Source: a bacterium (lineage in GTDB: Bacteria > Vulcanimicrobiota > Vulcanimicrobiia > Vulcanimicrobiales > Vulcanimicrobiaceae). Taken from it: a stretch of DNA of 35,896 nt. This document shows positions 2,082 through 14,044 of the stretch, piece after piece; the stretch's first letter is position 1, and the number at the start of each line of letters is the position of its first letter. The notes under the pieces were generated by a model. The model saw nothing but the letters and a program-made list of their open reading frames with translations. It was not told the DNA's origin and ran no database searches. The stretch spans positions 1 to 35,896 of the forward strand of contig JAJZED010000008.1 in assembly GCA_021805775.1 (NCBI GenBank), read 5' to 3'. The position numbers and the translations under genes are program-made.

Positions 2082-2900
2082 CTATTGAACGATGATGCCC
2101 GTCGTCGTAACCCCGATCGTTGCGGTAACGTGCTGCCCGTTCGTATCGGCGAAGGTTGCGGTACAGCTTCCGGCACTGACGCCGGTCACGGTGAAGGTGA
2201 AGCTCGGCCCGGTGCCGCTGCTTGGGGTTATCGTGGCGATCGTGCTGCAGGTATCGCTCTCAGTAAACGTGCCGGTGTAGCCGGTCTCCGTCACAACGAG
2301 CGTCTGTGCGTTACTCGCGCCGGTCCCGGTAATCGCTAGGGTGCTCGGAGCGATGCCGAGTGGGTTGGGCGTCGGTGTTGGTGTCGGCACGGGCGTCGGC
2401 ACAGGCGTCGGCACAGGCGTCGGCGTCGAACCCGGGCTCGGGCTCGTGCTTGGACTCGGACTCGGACTCGGGGTCGCCGCACCGATCGTAATATTCTGTA
2501 ACCCCGTCGGCACGGCGATAAGCCCGTTAAAGCCGTTCACGGTAATCGATGAGCTGCCTGGCGAGATCGCGGTCACGGTCGCTTTTCCGTTGGGGCTAAT
2601 GATCGTCTGCGGGCCCGCGCCTTTTGGGGACCGCTGCGTCGACTGCAAGTTCTGCTGTAAGCTCAGCACGGCACCGTTACTCGAGGTGATCGTGAAGGGG
2701 CCGAGATAGCCGGGCTGGCTGACCTGTAAAACGGCGATCTGCCCGACAAATTGCAATGGTCCGCTGAGGTTGACGGTGACCGGCGGCGCCGCCGGTGGCG
2801 TCGTGCTCCCGGGCCCGGAACTCGAACCCGAGGAACATGCAGCGAGCGCACCTATCGTTAGGAGCGCGAATCCCCAAAAAAACGACCGTCGAAGATACAT
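2082..2900 (-). CDS. Secreted lipoprotein with Ig-like domains and a Pro/Thr linker
   Basis: A 272-residue putative lipoprotein. I place the start at ATG 2900 rather than the upstream in-frame ATG at 2930, because AGGAG lies six bases before it and the signal peptide then begins at once (MYLRRSFFWGFALLTIGALAAC). The lipobox Cys is residue 22. Residues about 40-140 form a beta-rich, Ig-like region. Residues about 143-180 are a low-complexity Pro/Ser/Thr linker with PTPV repeats, encoded by 12-bp DNA repeats near 2370-2430. The C-terminal part (about 185-270) is a second Ig-like domain with two cysteines (DTCST and GSCTATF) that may form a disulphide. The product is probably anchored at the cell surface. 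I cannot name a specific function. It is divergent from the six-gene lipoprotein array and has its own terminator. Confidence 0.8.
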   Translation of the reverse strand: MYLRRSFFWGFALLTIGALAACSSGSSSGPGSTTPPAAPPVTVNLSGPLQFVGQIAVLQVSQPGYLGPFTITSSNGAVLSLQQNLQSTQRSPKGAGPQTIISPNGKATVTAISPGSSSITVNGFNGLIAVPTGLQNITIGAATPSPSPSPSTSPSPGSTPTPVPTPVPTPVPTPTPTPNPLGIAPSTLAITGTGASNAQTLVVTETGYTGTFTESDTCSTIATITPSSGTGPSFTFTVTGVSAGSCTATFADTNGQHVTATIGVTTTGIIVQ

Positions 2901-2949
2901 CAAGGCTCTCCTAAAAATAGCGAGTGGCACCTCGATTCGCTCGCGATAG

Positions 2950-3113: not shown

Positions 3114-4889
3114 ATGCGCTTTTTCCCCGACTCGCGCCTTATCGTATTTTCCGCTGCTCTGCTCTTGCTCGCCGGCTGCGGCGGCGGAGCGGCCTCCGGC
3201 GGGCTCGGCTCGACGCTGCCGAAGCAGACGAACGGAGCGACGGGGAGCGTTCGCTTCGCGATTACGGTGCCGCCGAAAACGGCGAGCAGCGGTCGCAGCC
3301 CGGCCTACGTTTCGCTGGCGACGCAATCGATGACGATTGCCGTGTTGCAGGGTACGACCAACGTGCTGAACCAAACGCTCGGTTTGACGCCGAGTTCGCC
3401 GGGGTGTACCACCTCGCTCGCGGGTACCCTCTGCACGATTTCGTTAAGTTTGGCGGCTGGTTCGTACACGGCATCGATCACGACGTACGACGGTGCGAAT
3501 GGGACGGGGAACGCGCTCTCGACGGCGCAGAGCGTTGCCTTCACCGTAACGGCGAATCAAAATAATCTCGTTCCGCTAACGCTGAGCGGCATTCCGACGG
3601 CGATCCACGTAGCGAGTGCGGGCGCGAATGCAGTCGATGTGCTGGCGCAGGATGCCGACGGCAACTTCATCGTCGGCGCGGGCGCGCCGACGTTTACGGC
3701 GAGTGCGAGCTCCGGCCCGGCGCTCGCAACGATCGTGCAACCGACGGCGAGTCACCCAAACCTGATTTCGTTCGTGCAGGCCTCGCCCACCGTTCTTGGT
3801 ACGGAGACGTTTGCAGTCGCGGCGAGCTACCCGGCGGGGGAGAGCAACGCGTGCACGCAGACGGGGGCGGTCTGCTCGCTTTCTTCGGCGCTGACGGCGA
3901 AAGTATCGGCACCGATGGCGATGGTCGCGGACTATGGCAACTCTCTCGTCCTCGGGTACACACTGCCGCTTACGAGTGCGATGCAACCCCCCGCCGTTTC
4001 CATTCCACTGAACAATGGCGGTTATCTTGCTGAAGACGCAAGCGGCAATGTTTTTGCTGCGAGCTATAGCATCCCGACGACCGTGTTGGAGATTCCTCCG
4101 CCGTACACCGCTGCGACAGTCACCAACTCCCTCGGAGGGGAGAATGTCAAACAAATAGCGGTGGCGCCGAATGGCGATCTCGCGTTGGCTAATATCGCCG
4201 GAAGCGTGGGCGGCTCGCTCTACGCCCCGCCCTACACGGCCGCCCCGACCGCGCTCTCAAACGGACTGAGCCGTCCGTACGGGGTCGCTTTCGATGCGAG
4301 CAACAACCTCTATTTCGGAAACAACGGCGCCAGCACGCTAACGATGCTCGCGCCGCCCTACACCGGAGCGCCGACGACCGTGAGCATTTCCGCGGCTGCC
4401 AATGGGCTCACCGTATCGGGCACGACGCTCTTCGTTAATGAGTATGCTGCTGTCGACGTCTTTTCGTTGCCGCTCACCGCTTCGAGCACGCCGATGGCTA
4501 AGCTTACTAGGGGTATTGGGACTGCCTATCGGAGCGCGGTCGATGCAAGCGGAAATCTCTGGGTTGCCAGCATTAGCGGCGGAGCGAGCAATGCGGGCTC
4601 GATCGAAGAGTTCACCAAGCCGTTTAGCACCGGCGAAACTCCGGCGGTGACGATCTCTATGCCGGTCGGCGGTGGATCGACCAGCTACTACCCATGGGGG
4701 ATCGCTTTCGATGCGGCGGGCAATCTCTATGTGACAAATGAATCTGGTGGCGCAGGGAGCGGTGGGTTGTTGGAGTTCTCTCCACCGATTACGAGTACGA
4801 GCAAGCCGACGTTTGCGATCGAGACCTCGGATTTCCAGTACTTATCCGACATCGTCATCACCCCGTCGCTGTTCTCGGTAACCCCGTAA
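3114..4889 (+). CDS. Array paralog 1: Ig-like / beta-propeller lipoprotein
   Basis: First of six tandem paralogs, 591 residues. A signal peptide ends at the lipobox LLAGC (Cys22), followed by a glycine/serine tether. Residues about 43-160 and 160-265 are two beta-rich, Ig-like domains, each with a close Cys pair (CTTSLAGTLC and CTQTGAVC). From about 268 to the end there are seven NHL/SGL-like blades with the recurring pattern G-h-A-x-D-A-x-G-N-L-h-V-x-N. The last strand (DIVIT) probably closes the ring with the first blade. The start has GAGAGGG five bases upstream and a signal sequence (MRFFPDSRLIVFSA) unlike the MRSVSG start of the other copies. It is the most divergent copy. A role in binding a ligand at the cell surface is inferred from the fold. 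No enzyme motif is seen. Confidence 0.85.
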   Translation: MRFFPDSRLIVFSAALLLLAGCGGGAASGGLGSTLPKQTNGATGSVRFAITVPPKTASSGRSPAYVSLATQSMTIAVLQGTTNVLNQTLGLTPSSPGCTTSLAGTLCTISLSLAAGSYTASITTYDGANGTGNALSTAQSVAFTVTANQNNLVPLTLSGIPTAIHVASAGANAVDVLAQDADGNFIVGAGAPTFTASASSGPALATIVQPTASHPNLISFVQASPTVLGTETFAVAASYPAGESNACTQTGAVCSLSSALTAKVSAPMAMVADYGNSLVLGYTLPLTSAMQPPAVSIPLNNGGYLAEDASGNVFAASYSIPTTVLEIPPPYTAATVTNSLGGENVKQIAVAPNGDLALANIAGSVGGSLYAPPYTAAPTALSNGLSRPYGVAFDASNNLYFGNNGASTLTMLAPPYTGAPTTVSISAAANGLTVSGTTLFVNEYAAVDVFSLPLTASSTPMAKLTRGIGTAYRSAVDASGNLWVASISGGASNAGSIEEFTKPFSTGETPAVTISMPVGGGSTSYYPWGIAFDAAGNLYVTNESGGAGSGGLLEFSPPITSTSKPTFAIETSDFQYLSDIVITPSLFSVTP

Positions 4890-4961
4890 TTCGGTAGCCC
4901 CGTAATGATGAAACGATATCGCCCCGCTCGCGCGGTTCATACCGCCATGAAGGAGATTCCT

Positions 4962-6737
4962 ATGCGTTCTGTTTCCGGTTCGCGCGTTGCGGCCGCATTG
5001 ACCGCCCTGCTCTTGCTCGCCGGCTGCGGCGGCGGGGCCTCCTCCGGCGGGCTCGGTTCGACGCTACCGAAGCAGGCAAACGGAGCGACGAACAGCGTTC
5101 GTTTCGCGATTACGGTGCCGCCGAAAACGGCGAGCAGCGGCCGCAGCCCGGCGTATGTCTCGCCGGCGACGCAATCGATGACGATTGCCGTGTTGCAGGG
5201 CACGACCAACGTGCTGAACCAAACGCTCGGTTTGACGCCGAGTTCGCCGGGGTGTACCACCTCGCTCGCGGGTACCGTCTGCACGATTTCGTTAAGTTTG
5301 GCGGCTGGTTCGTACACGGCGTCGATCACGACGTACGACGGTGCGAACGGGACGGGGAACGCGCTCTCGACAGCGCAGAGCGTTGGCTTTTCCGTAACGG
5401 CGAATCAAAATAATCTCGTTCCGCTGACGCTCAGCGGCATTCCGAGGGCGATCCACGTAGCGAGTGCGGGCGTAAATGCAGTCGACGTGGTGGCACAGGA
5501 TGCCGACGGCAACTTCATCGTCGGCGCGGGCGCGCCGACCTTTACGGCGAGCGCGAGTTCGGGCCCGGCGCTCGCAACGATCGTGCAACCGACGGCGAGT
5601 CACCCGAACCTGATTTCGTTCGTTCGGGCCTCGCCCGCCGTTCTTGGTACGGAGACGTTTGCAGTCGCGGCGAGCTACCCGGCGGGGGAGAGCAACGCGT
5701 GCACGCAGACGGGGGCGGTCTGTTCGCTCGCGTCGGCGGTAACGGCGAACGTATCGGTGCCGATAGCGATGATCGCGAACGCTGGCAGTAATACTGTCCT
5801 CGGGTACACGCTGCCGCTTACGAGTGCGACGCAGAGCCCCAGTTTTTCCATTGCGCTGGGCGGCGCTTTCCTTCTTGCCGAAGATGCAAGCGGCAATGTT
5901 TTTGCCGCGAACTATAACTCCCCGGAGAGCGTCGTCGAGATTCCTCCGCCGTACGCTGTGGCGACAGTCACGAACTCCCTCGGGGGCGACGAGAGCGAAC
6001 AAATGGCGGTGGCGCCGAATGGCGATCTCGCGTTGGCTAATATCCCCGGAACCGTTGGCGGCTCGCTCTACACCCCGCCCTACACGGCCGCCCCGACCCC
6101 GCTCTCAAACGGACTGAGCACACCGTACGGGGTCGCCTTCGATGCGAGCAACAACCTCTATTTCGCAAACAGGGGCGCCAGCACGCTAACGATGCTGGCA
6201 CCGCCCTACACCGGCTCGCCGACGACCGTAAATACATCCTCAGTCCCCTTCGGCCTCACCGTATCGGGCACGACGCTCTTCGTCGGTGAGAGTACTGCTG
6301 TCGACGTCTTTTCGTTGCCGCTGACCGCTTCGAGTACGCCGATCGCGACGCTGAGTAGCGGTATCAGCTATGTCCATCGGAGCGCGGTCGATGCAAGTGG
6401 AAATCTCTGGGTTGCCAACGAGAGCGGCGGAGCGAGCAATGAGGGCTCGGTCGAGGAGTTCACCAAGCCTTTTACTACCGGCGAAACGCCGACGGTGACG
6501 ATCTCTATGCCGGCCGGGGGCGGATCCATCAGCCACGTTCCATGGGGAATCGCTTTCGACGCGGCGGGCAATCTCTATGTTACAAATGTAAATGGTGGCG
6601 CAGGGCAGGGTGGGTTGTTGGAGTTCTCTCCACCGATTACGAGTGCGAGCACGCCGACCGTTGCGATCGAGAGCTCGAATTTATCTTTCGTAGCTGACCT
6701 CGTCATCACCCCGCCGCCGCTTTTGGTAACCCCGTAA
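4962..6737 (+). CDS. Array paralog 2: Ig-like / beta-propeller lipoprotein
   Basis: 591 residues, with the same domain order as paralog 1. I start it at ATG 4962 (MRSVSGSRVAAALTALLLLAGC, lipobox Cys22), because AAGGAG lies seven bases upstream. The in-frame ATG at 4905 would put a 19-residue polar extension before the signal peptide. The second Ig domain begins IPRAIHVASAGVNAVDV, a version shared only with paralog 6. In the propeller, top-loop positions differ from the neighbours: AGSN after the first VAN/IAN strand, GGAFL before LAEDASG, and SYVH before RSAVDASG. It reads on into paralog 3: the stop codon TAA overlaps an ATG at 6737, and there is no terminator between them. Confidence 0.85.
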   Translation: MRSVSGSRVAAALTALLLLAGCGGGASSGGLGSTLPKQANGATNSVRFAITVPPKTASSGRSPAYVSPATQSMTIAVLQGTTNVLNQTLGLTPSSPGCTTSLAGTVCTISLSLAAGSYTASITTYDGANGTGNALSTAQSVGFSVTANQNNLVPLTLSGIPRAIHVASAGVNAVDVVAQDADGNFIVGAGAPTFTASASSGPALATIVQPTASHPNLISFVRASPAVLGTETFAVAASYPAGESNACTQTGAVCSLASAVTANVSVPIAMIANAGSNTVLGYTLPLTSATQSPSFSIALGGAFLLAEDASGNVFAANYNSPESVVEIPPPYAVATVTNSLGGDESEQMAVAPNGDLALANIPGTVGGSLYTPPYTAAPTPLSNGLSTPYGVAFDASNNLYFANRGASTLTMLAPPYTGSPTTVNTSSVPFGLTVSGTTLFVGESTAVDVFSLPLTASSTPIATLSSGISYVHRSAVDASGNLWVANESGGASNEGSVEEFTKPFTTGETPTVTISMPAGGGSISHVPWGIAFDAAGNLYVTNVNGGAGQGGLLEFSPPITSASTPTVAIESSNLSFVADLVITPPPLLVTP

Positions 6738-6793
6738 TGATGAAACCGTATCGCCCCGCTCGCACGGTTCATACCGCCATAAAGGAAATTCCT

Positions 6794-8569
6794 ATGCGTT
6801 CTGTTTCCGGTTTGCGCGTTGCGGCCGCATTGACCGCCCTGTTCTTGCTCGCCGGCTGCGGCGGCGGGGCCTCCTCCGGCGGGCTCGGTTCGACGCTGCC
6901 GAAGCAGGCAAACGGAGCGACGAACAACGTTCGTTTCGCGATTACGGTGCCGCCGAAAACGGCGAGCAGCGGCCGCAGCCCCGCGTACGTCTCGCCGGCG
7001 ACGCAATCGATGACGATTGCCGTGTTGCAGGGCACGACCAACGTGCTGAACCAAACGCTCGGTTTGACGCCGAGTTCGCCGGGGTGTACCACCTCGCTCG
7101 CGAGTACCGTCTGCACGATTTCATTGAGTTTGGCGGCTGGTTCGTACACGGCGTCGATTACGACGTACGACGGTGCGAATGGGACGGGGAACGCGCTCTC
7201 GACGGCGCAGAGCGTTGCCTTCACCGTAACGGCGAATCAAAATAATCTCGTTCCGCTGACGCTGAGCGGCATCCCGACGGCGATCCAGGTATCGAGTTTG
7301 GGCACGAATGCAGTCGACGTGCTGGCGCAGGATGCCGACGGCAACTTCATCGTCGGCGCGGGCGCGCCGACATTTACGGCGAGCGCGAGCTCGGGACCGG
7401 CGGTCGCAACGATCGTGCAACCGACGGCGAGTCACCCGAACCTGATTTCGTTCGTTCAGGCCTCGCCCACCGTTCTTGGTACGGAGACGTTTGCGGTCGC
7501 GGCGAGCTACCCGGCGGGGGAGAGCAATGCATGCACGCAGACGGGGGCGGTCTGCTCGCTTGCGTCGGCGATGACGGCGACAGTATCGGTGCCGATGGCG
7601 ATGATCGCGAACTCTGTCGGTAACACTGTCCTCGGGTACACGCTGCCGCTTACGAGTGCGACGCAAAGCCCCGCCGTATCCATTGCGCTGGGCGGCGCTA
7701 CCCGTCTTGCCGAAGACGCAAGCGGCAATGTTTTTGCCGCGAACTATGGCTCCCCGGAGAGCGTCGTCGAGATTCCTCCGCCGTACGCTGCAGCGACGGT
7801 TACGAACTCCCTCGGGGGCGACTATGTCCTCCAAATGGCGATCGCGCCGAACGGCGACCTCGCATTGGCTAATGCCACCGGAAGCGTGGACGGCTCGCTC
7901 TACGCGCCGCCCTATACGGCCGCCCCGACCGCGCTCTCAAACGGACTGAGCAGTCCGTACGGGGTCGCCTTCGATGCGAGCAACAACCTCTATTTCGGAA
8001 ACAACGGCGCCAGCACGCTAACGATGCTGGCGCCGCCCTACACCGGAGCGCCGACGACCGTGAGCCTTTCCTCGTACGCCGACGGGCTCACCGTTTCGGG
8101 CACGACGCTCTTCGTCGGCGAGAGTGCTGATGTCGACATTTTTTCGTTGCCGTTGACCGCTTCGAGCACGCCGATCGCGACGCTGAGTAGCGGTATCAGC
8201 GCGGCCTATCGGAGCGCGGTCGATGCAAGTGGAAATCTCTGGGTTGCCAACAATGCCGGCGGAGCGAGCAATAAGGGCTCGATCGAGGAGTTCACCACGC
8301 CGTTTACTACGGGAGAGGCTCCGACGGTGACGATCTCTATGCCGGTCGGCGGCGGATCGACCAGTTACAATCCATGGGGGATCGCTTTCGATGCGGCGGG
8401 TAACCTCTATGTTACAAACAGATCTGGTGGCGCAGCAGGCGGCGGGTTGTTGGATTTCTCTCCACCGATTACGAGTGCGAGCAAGCCGACGTTTGCGATC
8501 GAGACCTCGAATTTGAATAGTTTATTCGACCTCGTCATCACCCGGCCGCCGCTTTCGGTAACCCCGTAA
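6794..8569 (+). CDS. Array paralog 3: Ig-like / beta-propeller lipoprotein
   Basis: 591 residues, started at ATG 6794 with AAAGGAAA upstream, a slightly weaker ribosome-binding site than in paralogs 2, 4 and 5. The signal peptide and lipobox are as in paralog 2. The first Ig domain belongs to the NQTLGLTPSSPGC type (paralogs 1, 2, 3, 6), but the second begins IQVSSLGTNAVDV, the type of paralogs 4 and 5, so the gene looks recombinant. The C-terminal end (TSNLNSLFDLVITRPPLSVTP) is nearly the same as in paralog 6. Variable loops include SVGN, GGATR, DYVL and RSGGAAG. Confidence 0.85.
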   Translation: MRSVSGLRVAAALTALFLLAGCGGGASSGGLGSTLPKQANGATNNVRFAITVPPKTASSGRSPAYVSPATQSMTIAVLQGTTNVLNQTLGLTPSSPGCTTSLASTVCTISLSLAAGSYTASITTYDGANGTGNALSTAQSVAFTVTANQNNLVPLTLSGIPTAIQVSSLGTNAVDVLAQDADGNFIVGAGAPTFTASASSGPAVATIVQPTASHPNLISFVQASPTVLGTETFAVAASYPAGESNACTQTGAVCSLASAMTATVSVPMAMIANSVGNTVLGYTLPLTSATQSPAVSIALGGATRLAEDASGNVFAANYGSPESVVEIPPPYAAATVTNSLGGDYVLQMAIAPNGDLALANATGSVDGSLYAPPYTAAPTALSNGLSSPYGVAFDASNNLYFGNNGASTLTMLAPPYTGAPTTVSLSSYADGLTVSGTTLFVGESADVDIFSLPLTASSTPIATLSSGISAAYRSAVDASGNLWVANNAGGASNKGSIEEFTTPFTTGEAPTVTISMPVGGGSTSYNPWGIAFDAAGNLYVTNRSGGAAGGGLLDFSPPITSASKPTFAIETSNLNSLFDLVITRPPLSVTP

Positions 8570-8570
8570 C

Positions 8571-8594
8571 GATGAAACGATGAAACGATGAAAC
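8571..8594 (+). repeat. Three copies of GATGAAAC in the leader of paralog 4
   Basis: The octamer GATGAAAC is repeated three times immediately after the stop codon of paralog 3, placing ATG triplets at 8572, 8580 and 8588. The equivalent leader of paralog 5 has two copies (10407-10422), and those of paralogs 2 and 3 have one. Because the period is 8, only the last ATG is in frame with the downstream gene. The first two open ATG AAA CGA TGA mini-frames. Confidence 0.8.
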
Positions 8595-8641
8595 GATATC
8601 GCCCCGCTCGCGCGGTTCATACCGCCATAAAGGAGATTCCT

Positions 8642-10405
8642 ATGCGTTCTGTTTCCGGTTCGCGCGTTGCGGCCGCATTGACCGCCCTGTTCTTGCTCGC
8701 CGGCTGCGGCGGGGCCTCCTCGGGCGGGCTCGGTTCGACGCTGCCGAAGCAGACGAACGGAGCGACGGGGAGCGTTCGCTTCGCGATTACGGTGCCGCCG
8801 AAAACGGCGAGCAGCGGCCGCAGCCCGGCGTATGTCTCGCCGGCGACGCAATCGATGACGATTGCCGTGTTGCAGGGTACGACCAACGTGCTGAACCAGA
8901 CGGTCGGCCTCACATCGAGTTCGACCGGATGCACGAGTTCGGCTGCGAGTACCACCTGCACCCTCGAACTCAGTCTCAATGCGGGCTCCTACACGGCGTC
9001 GATCACGACGTACGACGGAGCGAACGGGACGGGGAACGCGCTCTCGACCGCGCAGAGCGTTGCCTTCACCGTAACGGCGAATCAGAGTACGCTCGTTCCG
9101 CTGACGCTGAGCGGCATTCCGACGGCGATCCAGGTATCGAGTGCGGGCACGAATGCAGTCGACGTGGTGGCGCAGGATGCCGACGGCAACTTCATCGTCG
9201 GCGCGGGCGCGCCGACCTTTACGGCGAGCGCGAGCTCCGGCCCGGCGCTCGCAACGATTGTGCAACCGACGGCGAGTCACCCGAACCTGATTTCGTTCGT
9301 TCAGGCCTCGCCCACCGTCTCGGGTACGGAGACGTTTGCAGTCGCGGCGAGCTACCCGGCGGGGGAGAGCAACGCGTGCACGCAGACGGGGGCGGTCTGC
9401 TCGCTTTCCTCGGCGATGACGGCGAAAATACCGGCGCCGATGGCGATGGTCGCGAATCAGTCCCATAATACGGTCCTCGGGTACACGCTGCCGCTTACGA
9501 GTGCGACGCAGAGCCCCGCCGTTTCCATCGGACTGAACAATCCCGAGTATCTTGCTGAAGACGCAAGCGGCAATGTTTTTGCCGCGAACCTTGGCGGCCC
9601 GACGATCGTCCTCGAGATTCCGCCGCCGTACACCGCAGCGACGGTTACGAACTCCCTCGGGAACAACGATGCCCTCCAAATGGCATTGGCGCCGAACGGC
9701 GATCTCGCGTTGGCTAATGTCGGGGACGGCTCGCTCTACGCGCCGCCCTATACGGCCGCCCCGACCGCGCTCTCAAACGGACTGAGCAGTCCGTACGGGG
9801 TCGCCTTCGATGCGAGCAACAACCTCTATTTCGGAAACAACGGCGCGGTCACGCTAGCGATGCTCGCGCCGCCCTACACCGGAGCGCCGACGACCGTGAG
9901 CCTTTCCTCGTACGCCGACGGGCTCACCGTATCGGGCACGACGCTCTTCGTCGGCGAGAATGCTGATGTCGACATTTTTTCGCTGCCGCTCACCGCTTCG
10001 AGCACGCCGATTGCGACGCTGAGTAGCGGTATCAGCAGGGTCTTTCGGAGCGCGGTCGATGCAAGCGGAAATCTCTGGGTTGCCAACCAGCACGGCGGAG
10101 CGAGCAATGAGGGCTCGATCGAGGAGTTCACCAAGCCGTTTAGCACCGGCGAAATTCCGGCGGTGAGGATCTCTATGCCGGTCGGCGGCGGATCCACTAG
10201 CTACAATCCATGGGGGATCGCTTTCGATGCGGCGGGCAATCTCTATGTTACAAACACTTACGGTGGCACAGGGAATGGCGGGTTGTTGGAGTTCTCTCCA
10301 CCGATTACGAGTGCGAGCAAGCCGACCGTTGCGATCGAGACCGCGAATTTGTATAACCTATACGACCTCGTGATCACCCGGCCGCCGCTTTCGGTAACCC
10401 CGTAA
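8642..10405 (+). CDS. Array paralog 4: Ig-like / beta-propeller lipoprotein
   Basis: 587 residues, the shortest copy. It starts at ATG 8642 behind AAAGGAGATTCCT. One Gly is missing from the tether after the lipobox, and a blade-3 loop is shortened (ANVGDGSLY where the others have about four more residues). Its first Ig domain carries an alternative block (NQTVGLTSSSTGC, then TTCTLELSLNAGS and NQSTLVPL) shared almost base for base with paralog 5 only. The propeller loops QSHN, NNPEY, NDAL and TYGGTGN are distinct. It lies in the same transcription direction as its neighbours, with no terminator. Confidence 0.85.
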   Translation: MRSVSGSRVAAALTALFLLAGCGGASSGGLGSTLPKQTNGATGSVRFAITVPPKTASSGRSPAYVSPATQSMTIAVLQGTTNVLNQTVGLTSSSTGCTSSAASTTCTLELSLNAGSYTASITTYDGANGTGNALSTAQSVAFTVTANQSTLVPLTLSGIPTAIQVSSAGTNAVDVVAQDADGNFIVGAGAPTFTASASSGPALATIVQPTASHPNLISFVQASPTVSGTETFAVAASYPAGESNACTQTGAVCSLSSAMTAKIPAPMAMVANQSHNTVLGYTLPLTSATQSPAVSIGLNNPEYLAEDASGNVFAANLGGPTIVLEIPPPYTAATVTNSLGNNDALQMALAPNGDLALANVGDGSLYAPPYTAAPTALSNGLSSPYGVAFDASNNLYFGNNGAVTLAMLAPPYTGAPTTVSLSSYADGLTVSGTTLFVGENADVDIFSLPLTASSTPIATLSSGISRVFRSAVDASGNLWVANQHGGASNEGSIEEFTKPFSTGEIPAVRISMPVGGGSTSYNPWGIAFDAAGNLYVTNTYGGTGNGGLLEFSPPITSASKPTVAIETANLYNLYDLVITRPPLSVTP

Positions 10406-10469
10406 CGATGAAACGATGAAACGATATCGCCCTGCTCGCATGGTTCATACCGCTATGAAGGAGATTCCT

Positions 10470-12245
10470 ATGCGTTCTGTTTCCGGTTCGCGCGTTGCGG
10501 CCTTATTGACCGCCCTGCTCTTGCTCGCCGGCTGCGGCGGCGGCGGGGCCTCCTCCGGCGGGCTCGGTTCGACGCTACCGAAGCAGGCAAACGGAGCGAC
10601 GGGGAGCGTGCGCTTCGCGATCGTGGTGCCGCCGAAAACGGCGAGCAGCGGCCGCAGCCCCGCGTATGTCTCGCCGGCGACGCAATCGATGACGATTGCC
10701 GTGTTGCAGGGTACGACCAACGTGCTGAACCAGACGGTCGGCCTCACATCGAGTTCGACCGGATGCACGAGTTCGGCTGCGAGTACCACCTGCACCCTCG
10801 AACTCAGTCTCAATGCGGGCTCCTACACGGCGTCGATCACGACGTACGACGGAGCGAACGGGACGGGGAACGCGCTCTCGACCGCGCAGAGCGTTGCCTT
10901 CACCGTGACGGCGAATCAGAGTACGCTCGTTCCGCTGACGCTGAGCGGCATTCCGACGGCGATCCAGGTATCGAGTGCGGGCACGAATGCAGTCGACGTG
11001 CTGGCGCAGGATGCCGACGGCAACTTCATCGTCGGCGCGGGCGCGCCGACGTTTACGGCGAGCGCGAGCTCGGGACCGGCGGTCGCGACGATCGTGCAAC
11101 CGACGGCGAGTCACCCGAACCTGATTTCGTTCGTTCAGGCCTCGCCCACCGTTCTTGGTACGGAGACGTTTGCAGTCGCGGCGAGCTACCCGGCGGGGGA
11201 GAGTAATGCGTGCACGCAGACGGGGGCGGTCTGCTCGCTTTCCGCGGCGGTAACGGCGAAAGTATCGGCACCGATGGCGATGGTCGCGAATCAGTCCAAT
11301 AATACTGTCCTTGGGTACACGCTGCCGCTTACGAGTGCGACGCAGAGCCCCGCCGTTTCCATTCCACTGAGCGTCGCTTACCGTCTTACTGAAGACGCAA
11401 GCGGCAATGTTTTTGCCGCGAACTATGGCTCCCCGGAGAGCGTCCTCGAGATTCCTCCGCCGTACACTTCTGCGACGCTTACCAACTCTCTCGGAGGCGA
11501 TGATTCCTTCCAAATGGCGGTGGCGCCGAACGGCGACCTCGCGTTGGCTAATTTCACTGGAAGCGCGGGCGGCTCGCTCTACACCCCGCCCTACACGGGC
11601 GCCCCGACCACGCTTTCAAACGGACTGAGCAGTCCGTACGGGGTCGCCTTCGATGCGAGCAATAACCTCTATTTCGCAAACAGCGGCGCCAGCACGCTAA
11701 CGATGCTGGCACCGCCCTACACCGGAGCGCCGACGACCGTAAGCATTTCCTCGGTTGCCTATGGGCTCACCGTATCGGGCACGACGCTCTTCGTCGGCAA
11801 GAGTGCCGCTGTCGACATCTTTTCGCTGCCGTTGACCGCTTCGAGCACGCCGATCGCGACGCTGAGTAGCGGTATCAGCGGGGTCCATCGGAGCGCGGTC
11901 GATGCAAGCGGAAATCTCTGGGTTGCCAACGATACCGGCGGAGCGAGCTATGAGGGCTCGATCGAAGAGTTCACCAAGCCGTTTACTACGGGCGAGGCTC
12001 CGGCGGTGACGATCCTTATGCCGGTCGGCGGCGGATCGAGCAGCTACAATCCATTTGGAATCGCTTTCGATGCGGCGGGCAATCTCTATGTTACAAACAC
12101 TTCCGGTGGCGCAGGGAGCGGCGGATTGTTGGAGTTCTCTCCACCGATTACGAGTGCGAGCAAGCCGACCGTTGCGATCGAGACCGCGAATTTGAATAGC
12201 CTATATGACCTCGTCATCACCCCGTCCTTCTCGGTAACCCCATAA
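10470..12245 (+). CDS. Array paralog 5: Ig-like / beta-propeller lipoprotein
   Basis: 591 residues, started at ATG 10470 with AAGGAG seven bases upstream. Four glycines follow the lipobox Cys, one more than in paralog 2. Over roughly 270 bp of the first Ig domain (10729-11000) it appears identical to paralog 4 apart from one synonymous change, the clearest gene-conversion tract in the array. Its propeller differs from paralog 4: SVAYR, DDSF, SGVH and YNPF in the variable loops. It ends two bases before the start of paralog 6, so the two may be translationally coupled. Confidence 0.85.
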   Translation: MRSVSGSRVAALLTALLLLAGCGGGGASSGGLGSTLPKQANGATGSVRFAIVVPPKTASSGRSPAYVSPATQSMTIAVLQGTTNVLNQTVGLTSSSTGCTSSAASTTCTLELSLNAGSYTASITTYDGANGTGNALSTAQSVAFTVTANQSTLVPLTLSGIPTAIQVSSAGTNAVDVLAQDADGNFIVGAGAPTFTASASSGPAVATIVQPTASHPNLISFVQASPTVLGTETFAVAASYPAGESNACTQTGAVCSLSAAVTAKVSAPMAMVANQSNNTVLGYTLPLTSATQSPAVSIPLSVAYRLTEDASGNVFAANYGSPESVLEIPPPYTSATLTNSLGGDDSFQMAVAPNGDLALANFTGSAGGSLYTPPYTGAPTTLSNGLSSPYGVAFDASNNLYFANSGASTLTMLAPPYTGAPTTVSISSVAYGLTVSGTTLFVGKSAAVDIFSLPLTASSTPIATLSSGISGVHRSAVDASGNLWVANDTGGASYEGSIEEFTKPFTTGEAPAVTILMPVGGGSSSYNPFGIAFDAAGNLYVTNTSGGAGSGGLLEFSPPITSASKPTVAIETANLNSLYDLVITPSFSVTP

Positions 12246-12247
12246 CG

Positions 12248-14044
12248 ATGAAACGAGATCGCCTGCGTTCTGTTTCCGGTTCGCGCGTTGCGGCCGCATT
12301 GACCGCCCTGTTCTTGCTCGCCGGCTGCGGCGGCGGAGCGGCCTCCGGCGGGCTCGGTTCGACGCTGCCGAAGCAGGCAAATGGAGCGACGAACAGCGTT
12401 CGTTTCGCGATTACGGTGCCGCCGAAAACGGCGAGCAGCGGTCGCAGCCCGGCCTACGTTTCGCCGGCGACGCAATCGATGACGATTGCCGTGTTGCAGG
12501 GCACGACCAACGTGCTGAACCAAACGCTCGGTTTGACGCCGAGTTCGCCGGGGTGTACCACCTCGCTCGCGGGTACCCTCTGCACGATTTCGTTAAGTTT
12601 GGCGGCTGGTTCGTACACGGCGTCGATTACGACGTACGACGGTGCGAATGGGACGGGGAACGCGCTCTCGACGGCGCAGAGCGTTGCCTTCACCGTAACG
12701 GCGAATCAAAATAATCTCGTTCCGCTGACGCTGAGCGGCATTCCGAGGGCGATCCACGTAGCGAGTGCGGGCGTAAATGCAGTCGATGTGGTGGCACAGG
12801 ATGTCGACGGCAACTTCATCGTCGGCGCGGGCGCGCCGACCTTTACGGCGAGCGCGAGTTCGGGCCCGGCGCTCGCAACGATCGTGCAACCGACGGCGAG
12901 TCACCCGAACCTGATTTCGTTCGTTCAGGCCTCGCCCACCGTTCTTGGTACGGAGACGTTTGCAGTCGCGGCGGGCTACCCGGCGGGGGAGAGTAATGCG
13001 TGCACGCAGACGGGGGCGGTCTGCTCGCTCGCGTCGGCGATGACGGCGACAGTATCGGCGCCGATGGCGATGGTCGCGAACTCTGGCGGTAATACTGTCC
13101 TCGGGTACACGCTGCCGCTTACGAGTGCGACGCAGAGCCCCGCCGTTTCCATTCCACTGTACACCGCTTACCTTCTTACCGAAGACGCAAGCGGCAATGT
13201 TTTTGCTGCGAGCTTTACCTCCCCGACGACGACCGTCCTCGAGATTCCTCCGCCGTACACTTCTGCGACGCTTACCAATTCTCTCGGAGGCGATGATTCC
13301 TACCAAATGGCGGTGGCGCCGAACGGCGATCTCGCGTTGGCTAATATCGCCGGAATCGCGGGCGGCTCGCTCTACGCGCCGCCCTATACGGCCGCCCCGT
13401 CCGCGATTACCAGCGGACTTAGTGGAGGAGCCGTCGCAGTCGCCTTCGATGCGAGCAACAACCTCTATTTCGGCAACAGCGGCGCCAGCACGCTAGCGAT
13501 GCTCGCGCCGCCCTACACCGGCTCGCCGACGACCGTGAGCCTTTCCTCGGTTGCCAACGGGCTCACCGTATCGGGCACGACGCTCTTCGTCGGCGAGACT
13601 TCTGATGTTGACGTCTTTTCGTTGCCGTTGACCGCTTCGAGCACGCCGATCGCGACGCTGAGTAACGGTATCGGGACTGCCTATCGGAGTGCGGTCGATG
13701 CAAGCGGAAATATCTGGGTTGCCAACTCTTCCGGTGGAACTTCTAGTAATGGCTCGATCGAGGAGTTCACCGAGCCGTTTAGCACCGGCGAAACTCCGGC
13801 GGTGACGATCTCTATGCCGGTCGGCGGCGGATCCACCAGCTACAATACATTGGGTATCGCTTTCGATGCGGCGGGCAATCTCTATGTTACAAACAGATCT
13901 GGTGGCGCAGGGAGCGGCGGATTGTTGGAGTTCTCTCCACCGATTACGAGTGCGAGCAAGCCGACGTTTGCGATCGAGACCTCGAATTTAAATAGTTTAT
14001 TCGACCTCGTCATCACCCGGCCGGCGCTTTCGGTAACCCCGTAA
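12248..14044 (+). CDS. Array paralog 6: Ig-like / beta-propeller lipoprotein with a rebuilt 5' end
   Basis: 598 residues. The leader that supplies AAGGAG and ATG in the other copies has been deleted. The former start codon position now reads CTG within MKRDRLRSVSGSR, so translation must begin at ATG 12248, two bases after the stop of paralog 5. No ribosome-binding site is visible, and coupling to paralog 5 is likely. The N-terminal signal peptide and lipobox survive. The protein is a mosaic: the second Ig domain (IPRAIHVASAGVNAVDV) matches paralog 2, while the tail (TSNLNSLFDLVITRPALSVTP) matches paralog 3. Blade 4 carries the only SGGAVAVAFD variant in place of PYGVAFD. Its 3' end faces the DUF4239 gene 28 bp away. 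Confidence 0.83.
   Translation: MKRDRLRSVSGSRVAAALTALFLLAGCGGGAASGGLGSTLPKQANGATNSVRFAITVPPKTASSGRSPAYVSPATQSMTIAVLQGTTNVLNQTLGLTPSSPGCTTSLAGTLCTISLSLAAGSYTASITTYDGANGTGNALSTAQSVAFTVTANQNNLVPLTLSGIPRAIHVASAGVNAVDVVAQDVDGNFIVGAGAPTFTASASSGPALATIVQPTASHPNLISFVQASPTVLGTETFAVAAGYPAGESNACTQTGAVCSLASAMTATVSAPMAMVANSGGNTVLGYTLPLTSATQSPAVSIPLYTAYLLTEDASGNVFAASFTSPTTTVLEIPPPYTSATLTNSLGGDDSYQMAVAPNGDLALANIAGIAGGSLYAPPYTAAPSAITSGLSGGAVAVAFDASNNLYFGNSGASTLAMLAPPYTGSPTTVSLSSVANGLTVSGTTLFVGETSDVDVFSLPLTASSTPIATLSNGIGTAYRSAVDASGNIWVANSSGGTSSNGSIEEFTEPFSTGETPAVTISMPVGGGSTSYNTLGIAFDAAGNLYVTNRSGGAGSGGLLEFSPPITSASKPTFAIETSNLNSLFDLVITRPALSVTP

Follow-up and report, generated by a model that had tools for sequence, protein, structure and literature searches.

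The 35,896-nucleotide window analyzed here, from a genome whose assembly of 2.59 Mb is 96% complete and has a Candidatus Eremiobacterota bacterium among its named relatives, carries six complete open reading frames (ORFs) of 591-610 codons in tandem on the forward strand, at positions 3114-14044 (Table 1). The earlier note on this DNA had placed the start of the array at 3903, which is approximately where the first propeller starts; the array itself starts at 3114. The encoded proteins have 82-87% identity to copy 1 or copy 2, and every one consists of a signal peptide with the lipobox LLAGC at its end, a conserved N-terminal region, and a seven-bladed NHL-type beta-propeller. A ribosome site of the AAGGAG/AAGGAA type precedes the ATG opening MRSVSG in four copies, the N-terminus of copy 1 is MRFFPDSR, and, counted from the likely starts, the genes are 17-72 bases apart. 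Copy 6 lacks the intergenic stretch that holds the ribosome site (12246-12262); its start is probably the ATG two bases past the copy 5 stop, and translational coupling of the two copies is possible. No Pfam match was found for the small predicted lipoprotein encoded by the divergent neighbor, a homologue of which adjoins propeller genes in three relatives (L045, L047, and L049); such a gene lies next to the propeller genes in at least four genomes.

Table 1. Genes of the propeller array, its divergent neighbor, and variable loops of copy 2
Feature	Position	Strand	Description and basis
Small predicted lipoprotein	2082..2930	-	Divergent neighbor; AACSSGSSSG with P/T-rich repeats; start context and synteny
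Copy 1	3114..4889	+	Lipobox LLAGC; propeller ~3915-4862; ORF, start context, alignment, Pfam NHL PF01436 (24.4 bits, cut-off 20)
Copy 2	4962..6737	+	ORF opens 4905; likely start ATG 4962 behind AAGGAG; propeller 5763-6710; protein modeled
BC loop, blade 7 (AGSN), copy 2	5781..5792	+	4/4 residues variable among copies; model and alignment
DA loop into blade 1 (LGGAFL), copy 2	5856..5873	+	Site of NNGGY/GGAFL in the earlier note
BC loop, blade 1 (YNSPES), copy 2	5913..5930	+	Alignment, blade assignment
DA loop into blade 2 (GGDESEQ), copy 2	5982..6002	+	Alignment, blade assignment
BC loop, blade 2 (IPGTVGG), copy 2	6042..6062	+	Alignment, blade assignment
DA loop into blade 5 (GISYVHR), copy 2	6360..6380	+	Site of GTAY/SYVH in the earlier note
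BC loop, blade 5 (ESGGASNEG), copy 2	6420..6446	+	Alignment, blade assignment
BC loop, blade 6 (VNGGAGQGG), copy 2	6588..6614	+	Site of ESGG/VNGG in the earlier note
Copy 3	6794..8569	+	ORF opens 6737; likely start 6794; propeller 7595-8542
Copy 4	8642..10405	+	ORF opens 8588; likely start 8642; propeller 9440-10378; BC loop of blade 2 shorter by 3 residues (deletion)
Copy 5	10470..12245	+	ORF opens 10416; likely start 10470; propeller 11274-12221
Copy 6	12248..14044	+	Probable start ATG 12248; shortened intergenic region; CTG in place of the other copies' ATG; propeller 13064-14017

An AlphaFold model of copy 2, made with 25 homologues, has 28 strands in order, forming the seven four-stranded blades of a closed propeller, with pLDDT mostly above 85 over the propeller. 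The sequence also divides into seven A-B-C-D blades, one of which joins strands B-C-D from the domain start to strand A from the C-terminus; these blade elements were set from the sequence before the model and agree with the model's DSSP. The PDB matches are propellers: fold and sequence searches return the designed Pizza proteins, and the PknD sensor and a propeller of an archaeal surface layer are among the nearest solved relatives. The Pfam NHL and Reg_prop repeats match weakly: copy 1 scores above the curated cut-off of PF01436, and five of the six copies match it at E up to 0.1. Because the PF01436 match is weak, we regard the array propellers as a divergent member of the NHL group, in which strands are lettered from inside to outside and the repeats span strands A to C (PMC6107167). 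Faces were assigned by strand order in the blades, and since every second turn of an up-down meander falls on one face no matter where the lettering begins, placing the D-A and B-C loops on one face is independent of the strand names. As the earlier note had stated, this face is conventionally the top and is commonly used for binding (PMC6107167).

Comparing the six copies, we found that the D-A and B-C loops, together forming one face, vary fast on a shared scaffold. Variable residues make up 34/51 positions in D-A and 29/43 in B-C loops, that is, 63 of the 94 on this face (67%), versus 18% in the other loops (A-B, 0/22; C-D, 10/35) and 25% in strands (42/165). The 52 of 115 variable propeller sites that lie outside the top loops are chiefly in the outer strand D (21) and the C-D loops (10), and all three propeller indels fall in top loops: copy 6 has insertions in both BC1 and DA3, and copy 4 lacks three residues in BC2. 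At the variable top sites, S, Y, N, T, and G are frequent, a composition common in binding surfaces. In the six-ORF alignment, the cores that had been described as almost fixed are so (VAFDASNNLYF and IAFDAAGNLYVTN invariant, SAVDASGN[LI]WVA nearly so), and all the loop variants listed for them read as written. The further claim, that the same two loops differ in every blade, had been drawn from motifs of blades 1, 5, and 6 only, but all seven blades show the effect, with a per-blade pN of 0.17-0.44 at the top versus 0-0.09 at the bottom.

This contrast lies mainly in amino acid replacement. Over the propeller, pN is 0.279 in top loops, 0.043 in bottom loops, and 0.058 in strands, with pS of 0.262, 0.169, and 0.170, respectively, so that the nonsynonymous excess of the top loops is 5-6-fold while synonymous divergence is only 1.5-fold that elsewhere. 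Mutation rate alone is thus not the cause, ruling out a mutational hotspot as the sole explanation. Differences in top loops are spread evenly over the three codon positions (405, 401, and 342) but favor position three outside them (250, 130, and 458). With loops as units, pN is higher in D-A and B-C loops than in A-B and C-D loops (Mann-Whitney p 1e-5), strands (p 2e-7), or C-D loops alone (p 1e-4), and only one of 315 circular label shifts reaches the observed contrast, the best-scoring shift being one residue. The earlier note had named variable sites on both faces and dominance of synonymous change as outcomes that would argue against it; neither was found in the loop tests, the pN and pS values, or the codon positions.

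The codon-level selection check proposed with it gave a divided answer. Under a fixed-sites codon model of the MG94 type, omega with one tree is 2.17 in B-C loops, 0.79 in D-A, 0.00 in A-B, 0.33 in C-D, and 0.26 in strands, and with a tree per blade 2.29, 0.82, 0.00, 0.37, and 0.28, respectively. The B-C value exceeds 1 in this standard model, also with a tree per blade (p 0.002), and a counting estimate with codon bootstrap gives 1.8 (1.1-3.2). However, 15 of the 43 B-C codons need a multi-base change, which makes multi-hit modeling matter, and when two- and three-base changes are allowed, B-C omega becomes 1.7-1.9 with p 0.10-0.16, D-A 0.49-0.64, and the whole top face 0.77-0.93. We therefore dropped the B-C excess as a demonstration of selection, and the codon data are suggestive of positive selection in these loops. 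For the whole top face, omega is 0.77-1.26 depending on the model, and in no six-copy model does it significantly exceed 1. Elsewhere purifying selection prevails, with omega of 0.2-0.3 in strands and bottom loops and 0.20 in the N-terminal region; in distant homologues, top-face omega is 0.26.

Other propeller lipoproteins of Eremiobacterota, encoded on contigs 3 and 8 of the same genome and by an independent array in another genus (genome G029), share a homologous N-terminal region, propeller, and lipobox with the six copies, and both the contig 8 orthologues and the G029 array have a top-face bias as well. The contig 8 gene, a single locus stable across species, gives omega of 0.51 for the top, 0.16 for the bottom, and 0.16 for strands among orthologues in six genomes. 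Its bias appears even between sister species: in the two closest genomes, pN/pS is 0.075/0.066 at the top and 0.007/0.048 in strands, though on small counts. A propeller of contig 6 has no top bias (omega, 0.10 top, 0.07 bottom, 0.10 strands). In the four-gene G029 family, top omega is 1.59 (p 0.026) and D-A omega 2.5 (p 0.0008), with 0.31 in strands and 0.24 by counting in the N-terminal region; its propeller differs from the six copies in that its sequence divides into six blades and its C-D loops vary, the latter raising bottom omega to 1.12 and making the one-face pattern less than clean in that array. The G029 genes, highly similar copies, lie at two contig ends (L054:149-3632 and L055:5878-9420), probably parts of one cluster broken by assembly. 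Since the single-locus orthologues of sister species show the same bias, we no longer regard it as peculiar to the tandem array. In the sequences compared, a variable top face is recurrent in the lipoprotein superfamily, independent of tandem arrangement, and not universal among propellers.

The main rival explanation, which we hold to be quite possible, is that constraint is merely relaxed, the D-A and B-C loops having no role and drifting while folding holds the turns and strands, with neither a repertoire nor selection for diversity. Drift of exposed loops can explain most of the face-wide rate, as omega near 1 over the whole top and the same bias in the orthologue pair of the single-locus gene suggest that a fast-evolving or little-constrained face explains much of the pattern. 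Moreover, NHLRC2, another NHL propeller, diverges between blades in strand D and the connecting loops (PMC6107167), and the A-B turns (DASGN) are structural, which alone is enough for their face to look conserved. However, drift sits poorly with a B-C point estimate of 1.7-2.3 in every six-copy model, with C-D loops that are surface turns too but far less variable in the six copies, and with the contig 6 propeller of the same genus, which lacks the bias. The constrained top loops of distant homologues also speak against it, a point weakened by saturation (pS 0.43-0.69). Of the small fixed receptor or adhesin repertoire put forward in the earlier note, the shared scaffold with one variable face stands, while selection for diversity is not borne out by the top-face omega, the multi-hit test, or the single-locus orthologues.

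The six copies are a mosaic with the signature of gene conversion. Each copy's closest relative changes from one part of the gene to the next, and a silent-site run test detects recombination among copies: none of 2000 permutations had silent-site sharing in pairwise runs as high as observed, copies 4 and 5 sharing most. An N-terminal stretch (residues 106-139, copy 2 numbering) exists in two versions. The version of copies 4 and 5 is resembled by one copy of relative G003 and by G002, and that of copies 1, 2, 3, and 6 by the other G003 copy and by G005 (homologues at L045, L046, and L047), a distribution consistent with conversion having shuffled old variants. Species differ in copy number: G003 has two copies at the same locus (L045), flanked by an MFS transporter, the small lipoprotein, and a bestrophin-like gene, while G002 has one homologue at another locus. 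In G005 and G001 the contigs end inside the first copy; relatives' contig ends inside propeller genes lie at L047:12270-13292, L048:3-824, and L049:1-516, and the copy numbers of these two relatives are therefore probably underestimated. A diversity-generating retroelement was ruled out, as variable sites span all blades and no RVT_1 match to a reverse transcriptase was found in the 96% complete genome, control genomes being positive; a phage origin was ruled out as well, phage records giving no match.

Diversity confined to one set of loops could also arise if the exposed face changed to evade phages, predators, or other attackers rather than to bind, and gene conversion with copy-number change in surface antigen families is a known theme of antigenic diversity (PMC4534519). 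We judge such escape improbable, as the organism has no known host and the six full ORFs could be co-expressed, with no silent cassettes, expression site, or switch seen among them. That reads from diverged copies or strains were joined into a false mosaic array is highly improbable: the assembly is likely a metagenome-assembled genome, as the named relatives are, two relatives have contigs broken within these genes, and a stretch of 245 bases is identical between copies 4 and 5, but no other pair shares more than 146, every reading frame is intact, the face bias is independent of copy order or number, and two copies stand at this locus in a relative.

The reading we favor, with about an even chance of being right, is that these genes encode tandemly duplicated, gene-converted, lipid-anchored NHL-type binders, each with its own specificity on one variable face and turning over between species. 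Duplications would supply the copies, and gene conversion and purifying selection would keep uniform both the N-terminal region and, in the propeller, the strands with their A-B and C-D turns. The lipid-anchored propeller, putatively exposed at the surface or in the periplasm, would point its top face outward and there hold a ligand outside the cytoplasmic membrane, possibly a glycan, protein, or debris. Changes in D-A and B-C loops would set a distinct specificity for each copy, presumably of a co-expressed set, and as species gain, lose, and reshuffle copies, each lineage would be left with a small, fixed group of binders. In favor of binding stand the B-C excess, the lower variability of C-D loops, the lack of bias in the contig 6 propeller, the residue composition at variable sites, and what propellers of this fold usually do. 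A broader proposal, that tandem lipid-anchored propeller arrays of Eremiobacterota are a recognition repertoire in which conversion keeps the scaffold, selection for new specificities diversifies one face, and the binder set turns over between species, we consider rather unlikely.

Known systems offer partial parallels to such binders. The sensor domain of PknD from Mycobacterium tuberculosis (PDB 1RWI/1RWL), matched by profile (E 3.5e-9) and by fold, also has NHL-type blades and is extracytoplasmic and membrane-tethered; its propeller is a cup with a binding surface and mediates adhesion (PMC3322341). In contrast to its six blades, single gene, and fused transmembrane kinase, the array has seven blades, a lipid anchor, and six paralogues, and no kinase domain was found in these lipobox lipoproteins of about 590 residues. 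The archaeal surface-layer protein with a YVTN propeller and PKD domain (PDB 1L0Q) likewise joins a propeller to another beta domain and covers more of the query than the other top fold matches do (TMq 0.44, 330 columns, rmsd 3.2), though at 18% identity. Leptospira Lp49, a two-domain surface antigen mentioned in PMC9218822, has a similar layout of an extra N-terminal domain plus propeller, its propeller belonging to a lactonase-like family. The csa1 cluster of Staphylococcus aureus (PMC7360770) is also a tandem set of lipoprotein paralogues whose copy number varies between genomes, but its proteins are unrelated and have no propeller, and the abstract mentions no diversity specific to one face.

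The array offers a candidate binding face and a natural variant set for a large uncharacterized lipoprotein superfamily from a phylum with few cultures. Sharing a scaffold but differing at those 63 residues of one face, the six propellers may be a natural experiment in binding specificity, and the comparable array in another genus makes the repertoire idea testable. In addition, one to three micro-repeats of the CGATGAAA type lie in each of the intergenic regions 4890-4961, 8570-8641, and 10406-10469, a possible footprint of the array duplications.
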